A DNA stretch of 64,000 bases, from contig NZ_CP007213.1 of assembly GCF_001411805.1 (NCBI RefSeq), positions 2,232,001 to 2,296,000 on the forward strand. The letters run 5' to 3'. The stretch comes from Burkholderia plantarii (lineage in GTDB: Bacteria > Pseudomonadota > Gammaproteobacteria > Burkholderiales > Burkholderiaceae). Positions within the stretch are counted from its first letter, which is position 1. Each line of letters opens with the position of its first letter. The notes under the pieces were generated by a model. The model saw only the letters and a list, made by a program, of their open reading frames with translations, was not told the DNA's origin and made no database searches. A program made the position numbers and the translations under genes. Positions 1-37,800 of the stretch are shown one piece after another.

Positions 1-3000
1 CGCTCGCCACGAACGCCTGCAACATCGACGGCACGAAATGGAGCGTCGTCACGCGATGCGCCACGATCGTCTTCGCCAGTTCCGCCGGATCGCGATGCGC
101 GCCCGGCGCCGCGATTGCCAGCCGCGCACCCACCATCAGCGGCCAGAAGAATTCCCAGACCGATACGTCGAAGCTGAACGGCGTCTTTTGCAGCACCGTC
201 TCGCCGCGCCGCAGCCCGTATTCGCGCTGCATCCAGACGAGGCGGTTCGACAGGCTGTCGTGGCGGTTGCCGACGCCCTTCGGACGCCCGGTCGAGCCCG
301 AGGTGAAGATCACGTAGGCGAGATTCGCGCCGTCGAGCTTCACGTCCGGATTGTTGGCCGGAAGCGATGACGCGTCCGACAGGTCGAGCGTGTCGAGATC
401 GACGCGCTCGACGCCGTCTCGGGACGGCAGGTCGATATCGCGCTGCGCGAGCAGCAGGCCGATGCCGCTGTCATCGATCATCGCCGCGATCCGGTCGGCC
501 GGATAGGACGGATCCAGCGGCACGTAGGCCGCGCCCGCCTTCATGATCGCGTAGAGCGCGATCACGAGTTCGATCGAACGCTCGGCCGAAATGCCGACGC
601 GCGACTCCACCCCGACGCCCCGCACGCGCAGCCAATGCGCGAGGCGATTCGCGCGCGCGTTCAGTTCGGCATAGGTCAACGTCGTATCGCCGAATACAAG
701 CGCTTCATCGTCGGGATACGCCGCCGCATGACGCTCGAACGCATGGAACACCGGTTCGATTTCGTCATAGACGGTATCGTTGCGGCTCCACGCGTCGAGC
801 ATCGCGCGCTCGGCGTCATCGGTCAGCGCGATATCGGCGATACGCACGTCCGGATCGCCCTGCGCGATCGCGGCAACGCAGCGCTGGTAATGCGCGGCCA
901 GACGCGCGATCGTCGCCTCGGCGAACAGTTCACGTGCATAGCTGAATTCGAGCGTCAGCGTGCCGTCCGCATCCTCGTGCGTGTTGAGCATCAGCTCGAA
1001 CTGCGCCATCGTGGTCGGCAGGCGATGCGGCTCGATCGTCAGGCCCGGCAGGCCGTCCAGCACGCGCCAGTCGCGCCGCTGATGGTTGAACATCACCTGG
1101 AACAGCGGGCTGTGGCTGAGGCTGCGCTCGGGGCGCAGCGCCTCGACCAGCACGTCGAACGGCAGATCCTGATGCGCCTGCGCACCAACCGTCCCCAAAC
1201 GCAGCCGTTCTAGCAACGTGTCCAGCGTGTCGTCGCCGTCGAAGCTCGCGCGCATCACCTGCGTGTTGACGAAGAAGCCGATCAGCCGCTCGGTCTCGAC
1301 GCGATGGCGGTTCGCCACCGGCACGCCGACGCGGATGTCGTCCTGCCCCGTGTAGCGATGCAGCAGCGCCTGGAACGCCGCGAGCAGCACCATGAACGGC
1401 GTGGCCGAGCGACGCTGCGCGCAGGCCTTCACCGCCTGCGCCAACGAGGCCGGCAAGACCAGCAGATAACGCCCCGCCGCGTATTCGCCGTGGGCGTTGC
1501 GCGTGCCGTCCATCGGCAGCGACAGCACCGGATGCGAATCGCCGAGCGTCGTCTTCCAGTAGGCGAGCTGGCGCTCGCGTTCGCCGGCGTCGAGCCAGTC
1601 GCGCTGCCACGCCGCGTAATCGGCATACTGGATCGGCAGGTCCGCCAGCGGCGTCGCTTCGCCGAGCACGCGCGCACGATAAAACGCGACCAGTTCCTCC
1701 AGCAGCACCTGCACCGACCAGCCGTCCGAGACGATGTGGTGCATCGAGACGGCCAGCAACCGGCGGCCGGCACCCTTCGCCGCTTCGCGATACAGCCCCG
1801 CGCGCAACAGTGGCCCGGCGCCGAGGTCGAACGGCTCGTCGGCCAGCGCGCGCGCCGCCGCTTCGAGGCCACCGCTCGCCACCGTCTCGTCGCGCCAGTC
1901 GATCGACACCTGCTCGTCGAGCCAGGCATCGACCTCGCCGGACGCGTTCGCCACGAAGCGCGTGCGCAATACGTCGTGCCGCGCGACGATCGTCGCGAAC
2001 GCGTCGCGCAGCGCCGCCGCATCGACGTCGCCCGTCAGCCACAGGCCGCCCGAAACGTGATATGCGCGGCTCGCGGGCGCCAGTTGCCACAGGAACCAGA
2101 GCCGCTGTTGCGCGTAGGATGCCGGGCCACGCAGGCGCGCGGCGGCCGGCAAGCGCGGAATCGCCGAAAGTTCGAACGAGCCGGTCGATGCCAGGGCCGG
2201 GCGAGCCGGATCGGCTGCGCCGACTGCTGAAGCCGACGTGTTGTTGGCGACGCTGCCGGCCGCCTTCGCCGCGCTCGCCGCCGCCGCTTTCCCGGCCAGC
2301 TCCGCGAGCGTCAGCCGCTGGAACAGCTGCTTCGGCGTGATTGTGATACCGGCCTTGCGCGCACGCGCCACGACCTTCAGCCCGAGCAGCGAATCGCCGC
2401 CCACTTCGAAGAAATTCCTGCTGCGGCCGATACGGCCGACGTCGATCTCGATCACGTCGGCCCAGATCGCCGCGATGGTCCGCTCGGTGTCGTCTTGCGG
2501 CGCATCCGGCAACTGCGCAGCCGGGTCGGCGCCCAGCGTCTTCGCGAGATGCGCCTCCAGTTGCGCGCGCAACGCCGCGCGATCGAGCTTGCCGTTCGCG
2601 TTCAGCGGCAGCGCTTCGAGCGCGATCGCGTCGGCCGGCACCATGTAGTCGGGCAGCACGCGCGCGGCGGCTTCCAGCAGCGCGGTGCCGCGCGGGCCAC
2701 CGACCACGAACGCGGCGAGCCGCGTGCCGCCCGGCGCCTCGTGCGCGAGCACGGCCGCGCCGCGCACGCCGTCGAGGCCCGCGAGCGCGCGCTCGACCTC
2801 GGCCGGCTCGACGCGATAACCGCGCACCTTGACCTGATCGTCGGCACGGCCACGGTATTCGAGCAGGCCGTCGGCGCCGATCCGGCCAAGGTCGCCGGTT
2901 CGGTAGAGCCGCTCGCCAGCCAGGAACGGATCGGGTACGAAGCGCTCGGCGGTCAGCCCCGCGCGCCCGTGGTAGCCGCGCGCCACGCCGGGGCCGCCGA

Positions 3001-36918: not shown

Positions 36919-37800
36919 ATGAGGGCCGGTACCCGGCCCCCCGGCCCGCGAGTCGCGCCGCCGCTTCCCGATTCCCTGCCCGAACGCTCGATCCACCTCG
37001 CGCCCGACGTGACGTTCAGCGCGCACGCGCTCGCCGAGCAGCCGCCCTACTGCGCGCAGCCGCTGCGTGACGGCGAACTGCGGCTGTGGCTGCTGCGGCC
37101 CGAGTGGCAACTGCTGTCGAAGGAGGACGCGTTCGCGCGGCTCTCGCGCTACGAGCGCAAGCGCGCCAAGTGCTTTCCGCAGCCCGCCATCGGCAAGCGC
37201 TTCGCGGTGGGGCGCGCGGTGCTGCGCGGCATTCTCGGCGGCATCGTGGGCACCCGGCCCGAAGCGCTCGAACTCGTCGATCACGAAAGCGGCCGCATCA
37301 CGCTGGCCGAGCCGTGGGCGGACGGCGCGCTCGACGTCGCGATCGCCTACGCCGGCATCTGGATCCTGATCGGCGTGAGCGCGCAGCCGATCGGGCTCGC
37401 CACCGCGTTCTCGGTAGGCGATGCCGTGGACCACGACGAGCAGCAGCGCGTGCGGCTCACGAGCGTGGCGAGCGCCGCGCGCGCGCCGGCCGGCGACGCG
37501 CTCGCCGTGCCCGATGTCCCGGCCGGCGGCGATGCGTCCGCCACGGTTCAGGTCGAAGCCGGCCCGGCCCCGCATGCGCACCGCGTGCATACGCACGACG
37601 CCGGCAGCTGGCGCGTGATCGACCTGCCGATGCCGGGCCGTCAGTGCATGGCCGCGGTGGCCGCGCGCGAGATTCGCGAGGTGCGGGCGAGCGGCTGGAA
37701 CAGTTCGGTCAAGCTGCCGCTGCCGGCCGACGACGCGCCGCGCGGACGGCGCGCGACGAGCCCGGCGGTCGGCATCCGGCGCGCCGTGGCACGCGACTGA
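36919..37800 (+). CDS. Phosphopantetheinyl-transferase-like protein lacking catalytic motifs
   Basis: This 293-residue protein follows the Sfp/EntD layout: SKEDAFARLSRYERKRAKC, then FAVGRAVLRGILG (96-106), then GRITLAEP in the place of GKPYL. Where active enzymes have FNLSHS and GVDIE, it reads LDVAIAYAGI (138-147) and PIGLATAF (157-164). The Mg-binding Asp and Glu and the Ser-His are therefore absent, and no WxxKE motif follows. The C-terminal half (about 180-293) is Ala/Pro-rich and divergent. It is probably a catalytically dead relative with a structural or regulatory role, or a decaying gene; an active enzyme would then be encoded elsewhere. It is divergent from the mbtH operon, with a Fur-like dyad at 36750. 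ATG 36919 has GGAG nine bases upstream. Confidence 0.7.
   Translation: MRAGTRPPGPRVAPPLPDSLPERSIHLAPDVTFSAHALAEQPPYCAQPLRDGELRLWLLRPEWQLLSKEDAFARLSRYERKRAKCFPQPAIGKRFAVGRAVLRGILGGIVGTRPEALELVDHESGRITLAEPWADGALDVAIAYAGIWILIGVSAQPIGLATAFSVGDAVDHDEQQRVRLTSVASAARAPAGDALAVPDVPAGGDASATVQVEAGPAPHAHRVHTHDAGSWRVIDLPMPGRQCMAAVAAREIREVRASGWNSSVKLPLPADDAPRGRRATSPAVGIRRAVARD

Follow-up and report, generated by a model that had tools for sequence, protein, structure and literature searches.

The window, that is, the whole stretch of 64,000 nucleotides that was analysed, corresponds to positions 2232001–2296000 of contig 2 of the Burkholderia plantarii genome (8,081,051 bp, three contigs). As read here, the probable plantaribactin locus extends on the minus strand from about −9060 to 36407 in window coordinates, with about 9 kb of the cluster lying beyond the window's left edge. 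From right to left, the genes and features are:

36510..36768, gap upstream of the mbtH-like gene: Fur-box-like sites at 36510 (14/19) and 36750 (13/19), from a consensus scan
36123..36407, minus strand: mbtH-like gene (Pfam PF03621, E 2.6e-24)
35313..36119, minus strand: stand-alone thioesterase (Pfam PF00975, E 4.5e-43)
34333..35325, minus strand: TauD/SyrP-type dioxygenase, predicted aspartate beta-hydroxylase (Pfam PF02668, E 8.2e-46); by start codons, it begins at ATG 35325 or 35316
23060..34249, minus strand: NRPS1 (3729 aa), modules 5–7, C-A(Gra)-T-E, C-A(Gln)-T and C-A(Gly)-T (domain search and codes)
17333..23050, minus strand: NRPS2 (1905 aa), module 8, C-A(Gra)-T-E-TE (domain search and code)
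16460..17254, minus strand: FhuC-like ABC ATPase, below the NCBIfam cut-off
15444..16922, minus strand, true start probably near 16460: FhuD-like periplasmic binding protein, below the NCBIfam cut-off
13427..15454, minus strand: FhuB-like permease (NCBIfam NF007866, 724 bits against a cut-off of 554)
13044..13062, upstream of the receptor gene: Fur-box-like site (15/19, the best in the window), from the consensus scan
10661..13006, minus strand: TonB-dependent siderophore receptor (TIGR01783, 309.9 bits against a cut-off of 223.5)
8697..10133, minus strand: grbD homologue (plbD/PlbJ in print) with the SznF fold (SznF alignment, model and homologues)
7544..8602, minus strand: homologue of grbE, a haem-type protein of the YqcI/YcgG family that is predicted to N-hydroxylate the guanidine of arginine (Pfam PF08892)
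1..7456, continuing to −1048, minus strand: NRPS3, acyl-ligase-T starter and modules 1–2 for Asp and Ser (domains and codes)
−9060 to −1045, left of the window, minus strand: NRPS4, modules 3–4 for Ser (with E) and Orn (domains and codes)

NRPS3 begins at 7456, immediately downstream of grbE, and its N-terminal domain is acyl-ligase-like. The grouping of a haem protein, a helical-plus-cupin protein and an acyl-ligase NRPS described in the sequence-only reading is indeed present. The SyrP-like hydroxylase, the importer and the two additional NRPSs named there were all recovered by profile search. The span given, 1 to 37800, contained a correct gene list, but the locus reaches −9060 on the left and ends at 36407 on the right; the stretch up to 37800 adds a divergent gene (36919–37800) whose match to a PPTase is weak, scoring 34.5 bits where the cut-off is 370. 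That reading had also called for the first NRPS to be followed leftwards. NRPS3 was completed to −1048, and NRPS4 was found beyond it. The mbtH gene, the stand-alone thioesterase, the fourth NRPS and the Fur-box-like sites were absent from the earlier account.

A siderophore receptor and importer genes are present in the cluster. In the scan with a Fur consensus, three of the four window positions scoring at least 13/19 fall in the gaps upstream of the receptor and mbtH genes, which supports a predicted iron control.

Outside the cluster, a LysR regulator is encoded divergently from adjacent genes for carbonic anhydrase and cyanate hydratase at 39441–41723, as in a cyn-type operon. At 48327–49370, a sodium:dicarboxylate symporter match covers positions 39–231 of the 387 of the family, and therefore this gene may be interrupted. 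A single NRPS of 7861 aa with seven C-A-T modules lies outside the window at 85631–109216 (L004/L005), some 49 kb beyond mbtH on the right-hand side. In B. plantarii KACC 18964, the plantaribactin cluster is number 11 and a rhizomide cluster is number 12 (PMC11153758), and the 7861-aa NRPS possibly corresponds to the rhizomide-like cluster of that strain. A 15-kb piece of contig 3, compared with a plasmid collection, matched 148 records, of which the ten listed were B. glumae plasmids with 84.5–86.3% identity.

The domain search gave the order acyl-ligase-T-C-A-T-C-A-T for NRPS3, C-A-T-E-C-A-T for NRPS4, C-A-T-E-C-A-T-C-A-T for NRPS1 and C-A-T-E-TE for NRPS2. Among the four NRPSs, a starter domain is found only in NRPS3 and a terminal thioesterase only in NRPS2. 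The first domain of NRPS3 is predicted to be a putative fatty acyl-AMP ligase; plantaribactin is listed among the products of such ligases (FAAL), with a C12:0 chain (PMC11837247). NRPS3 holds modules 1–2, NRPS4 modules 3–4, NRPS1 modules 5–7 and NRPS2 module 8, and gene order thus differs from assembly order. The two further NRPSs of the sequence-only reading do exist, but they read as modules 5–8 of the same assembly line and not as neighbours of it.

The motif HHxxxDxVSW, which distinguishes E from C domains, marks three E domains, in modules 3, 5 and 8. The C domains of modules 4 and 6, each placed directly after an E domain within one protein, have HHALxDGWS in common, while the remaining six C domains have HHIV or HHVA. 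The motif of these two fits the acceptance of a D-configured donor. The codes of the eight amino-acid A domains, read from aligned sequences, are:

Module 1: DLTKIGHVGK, Asp
Module 2: DVWHVSLIDK, Ser
Module 3: DVWHVSLIDK, Ser
Module 4: DGEDHGTVTK, a basic residue; Orn by elimination
Module 5: DVHRTGLVAK, Gra
Module 6: DAEYLGTVTK, Gln-like
Module 7: DILQLGLIWK, Gly
Module 8: DVHRTGLVAK, Gra

Taken together, the four NRPSs read as one predicted eight-module line giving acyl-(OH)Asp-Ser-D-Ser-Orn-D-Gra-Gln-Gly-D-Gra. The code positions follow general background on A domains, as do the meanings given to the codes read as Ser, Gly and a basic residue. The Gra, Gln and Asp codes were compared with the table in PMC10391617. 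The graminine code DVHRTGLVAK, found in two of the eight A domains, is tabulated there for tistrellabactin and stated to equal the code of the earlier graminine peptides, and the code of module 6 resembles both Gln codes of the same source, DAEYVGSITK and DAEYAGTITK. Gly is assigned on the basis of the module 7 code together with the mass.

The placement of Gln and Orn came from relatives. GrbD was present in 5 of the 65 Burkholderia genomes searched, counting the window's own, and NRPS regions were compared from two of the other four (G014 and G015), in both of which the NRPS2 available ended before the thioesterase. In G015, probably B. glumae, all eight codes are identical to those of the window and GrbD is 92% identical. 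G014, probably B. gladioli, the species of the gladiobactin cluster, has seven of eight identical codes, the same domain order in the compared parts and a GrbD with 89% identity; only module 6 differs, with DAEDTGTVVK against DAEYLGTVTK here. Since Lys replaces Gln in gladiobactin, as concluded from MS/MS (PMC6771848), module 6 would take Gln in the window, and Orn would then fall to module 4 by elimination.

For a cyclised peptide of C12:0, OH-Asp, two Ser, Orn, two Gra, Gln and Gly, the calculated [M+H]+ is 1105.5484 and that of the iron complex 1158.4599, compared with published values for plantaribactin of 1105.5484 and 1158.4608 (PMC6771848). With the other six residues fixed, 12 of the chain/residue combinations tried fit within 3 ppm, and therefore the mass alone leaves modules 4 and 6 and the chain length unfixed. 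Modules 4 and 6 are fixed by the codes and the comparison with relatives.

Plantaribactin from B. plantarii, a bacterium of rice, is described as a graminine-containing product showing NO loss. L-erythro-OH-Asp, D-Ser, L-Ser, Orn, Gln and D-Gra are among its residues, the epimerase is placed in module 3, and its production was lost upon interruption of plbD (PMC6771848). ATCC 43733 is given as the strain yielding it (PMC11153758), and CP007213.1 as the record of that strain's chromosome 2 (PMC11858073). The residues, with Orn placed by elimination, the D-configured positions and the module count all agree with the locus: the same eight residues by code and mass, the module 3 epimerase, two D-graminines and the GrbD/GrbE pair. 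Comparing codes, epimerase positions and mass, no difference between plantaribactin and the window was found. The cluster very probably makes plantaribactin, the known graminine siderophore, and re-imports its iron-loaded form. A graminine siderophore had been proposed from the sequence, and the GrbD and GrbE homologues and the two A domains with the exact graminine code bear this out. The product expected then was a lipodepsipeptide, while published plantaribactin is a lactam closed through the ornithine side chain (PMC6771848). Its match to a known member had been held undecidable from the window, and it was decided by the codes, the epimerase positions, the mass and the surrounding genome.

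Other graminine systems have the GrbD/GrbE pair in common with the window, but not the peptide. Gramibactin, megapolibactin and tistrellabactin share the pair and the graminine code (PMC10391617) and differ in peptide length, residues and ring closure; in tistrellabactin, GrbE is in addition fused to an NRPS (PMC6771848, PMC10391617).

The nearest alternative product is a congener of plantaribactin, for example gladiobactin with Lys at module 6, or a peptide with another acyl chain. The pathway would be the same, congeners are known in close relatives (PMC6771848), and several chain-length/residue combinations are isobaric with plantaribactin. However, the module 6 code is that of G015 and lies near the two published Gln codes, and not that of G014, which makes a congener very unlikely. 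Gladiobactin itself was ruled out by this code, as the Lys code was not found at module 6. It is still less probable that the NRPS3/NRPS4 and NRPS1/NRPS2 pairs make two separate products. The importer genes and grbD/grbE do sit between the two pairs, and the gene order is not the assembly order, but the only starter is on NRPS3, the only terminal thioesterase is on NRPS2, and the published mass requires all eight residues. This reading was dropped, since one pair would have no release domain and the other no starter.

In the proposed route to plantaribactin, the N-nitroso-N-hydroxyl ligand graminine would be made from arginine in two steps: the haem-type GrbE would act first, hydroxylating the guanidine group, and the hydroxylated arginine would then be rearranged to graminine by the cupin domain of GrbD. 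Assembly would start with a C12 fatty acid loaded by the acyl-ligase domain of NRPS3. NRPS3, NRPS4, NRPS1 and NRPS2, in that order, would extend the chain by Asp, Ser, D-Ser, Orn, D-Gra, Gln, Gly and D-Gra, with the TauD-type enzyme hydroxylating Asp. Ring closure through the side chain of ornithine would fall to the terminal thioesterase. Fe(III) would be held by three bidentate ligands, OH-Asp and the two Gra, and the complex would be imported by the TonB receptor and FhuCDB, probably under Fur control.

The two graminine enzymes were studied further at the level of single residues. The GrbD open reading frame (8697–10220) aligns with SznF residues 72–485. Its start is probably at 10133, giving 478 aa as in close relatives, and the protein is 98% identical to a B. 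plantarii record and also 98% to a B. perseverans record. All 12 PDB fold matches of the GrbD model at E ≤ 0.001 are SznF chains, the model having a mean pLDDT of 78.7 and an alignment of 24 of the 120 listed sequences (homologues or window). In SznF numbering, all three cupin histidines (H407, H409 and H448) are retained, as against only one of the six SznF diiron ligands (E215, H225, E281, H311, D315 and H318, as listed in PMC11705231). The alignment near E215 and H225 shifts between runs, and therefore the loss of the diiron site rests mainly on H311, D315 and H318.

GrbE (7544–8602) belongs to the YqcI/YcgG family (Pfam PF08892, E 1.7e-66), and AglA, a member of the same family, accounts for its three PDB matches. 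Its Cys67 lies in a YPCFFGT motif with the counterpart YPCYFGT in AglA. All 42 GrbE sequences that were aligned, that of the window among them, conserve this cysteine; the alignment omitted 17 of the 58 locus sequences (open frames above 2000 aa). We take this residue as the probable counterpart of Cys47 of ChmN, which binds haem (PMC10849742).

Among 67 fetched loci, GrbE was found in 58 (one of them, L062, a fragment), and in all 58 the GrbD-like protein retains the three cupin histidines and at most two of the six diiron ligands. In seven loci, five or six diiron ligands are kept and GrbE is absent from the locus DNA examined; in three of the seven, cupin histidines are lost. L049 and L060, which make up the rest, are at contig ends and thus stand outside the GrbE tally. 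In the loci fetched, this proposed swap of haem for diiron is strict. The three with lost histidines (L067, L070 and L072) are SznF-like, with 5–6 of six diiron ligands, 0–1 of three cupin histidines and no GrbE in the locus DNA, as a mirror of GrbD. In 18 of the 58 loci, the open frame that contains the GrbE match is at least 600 aa long, and in most of the 18 it exceeds 2000 aa, as in a fusion with an NRPS. The window has grbE as a gene of its own. GrbE–NRPS fusions are known (PMC6771848).

SznF from the streptozotocin pathway has the same fold as GrbD, but it carries out both steps in one protein with its diiron ligands intact. A parallel is the ChmM/ChmN pair of chalkophomycin, where the work is divided in the same way: one protein is a haem hydroxylase, the other a cupin protein whose diiron domain is degenerate. 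The chm cluster has another A-domain code, and its product binds copper (PMC10849742). For that system, a haem hydroxylase replacing the diiron domain was proposed, and ChmN yields dihydroxyarginine (PMC10849742). GrbD was likened only to the SznF cupin domain in one source (PMC9679993), while a review assigns it both SznF domains (PMC11705231). The present data side with the review as regards fold and with the former source as regards function. That the GrbD-like protein makes a streptozotocin-type N-nitrosourea and not graminine, as its closest solved relative being SznF might suggest, is the least credible alternative and was ruled out by the loss of all but one of the six diiron ligands and by the two A domains with the graminine code; the adjacent GrbE gene also speaks against it.

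This enzyme pair was also observed in two Ca. Accumulibacter genomes and one Propionivibrio genome as a three-gene cassette (L073, 9722–14426; L068, 9956–14432; L064, 9842–14311). Its GrbD-like protein is 27–28% identical to the window's, with diiron ligands lost and cupin histidines kept, and its GrbE-like protein is 44–46% identical. The third gene encodes a lone adenylation protein of 707–734 aa, with the code DVKHMGLISK in all three. No other NRPS was found among the 17 flanking open reading frames scanned around the cassettes, and the neighbours differ between genomes. None of the papers searched links Accumulibacter with diazeniumdiolates or SznF. On a tentative reading, which we place somewhat short of probable, GrbE may have replaced the diiron N-hydroxylation of SznF, leaving GrbD as a cupin-only N–N bond former with an otherwise inactive scaffold, and the cassette may extend graminine-type chemistry beyond full siderophore assembly lines.

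The plantaribactin cluster is already published, and there is nothing new in the locus itself; as a finding, a published cluster found again, most probably in its strain of origin, carries little weight. Codes, epimerase positions and mass agree with one another, which is a useful check of consistency, and with the help of the two relatives Gln is placed at module 6 and Orn at module 4. The published chalkophomycin proposal, in which a haem hydroxylase stands in for the diiron domain, gains a further 67 loci from the comparison of GrbD and GrbE. If the reading of the three-gene cassette is true, graminine-type chemistry would occur outside full siderophore assembly lines.
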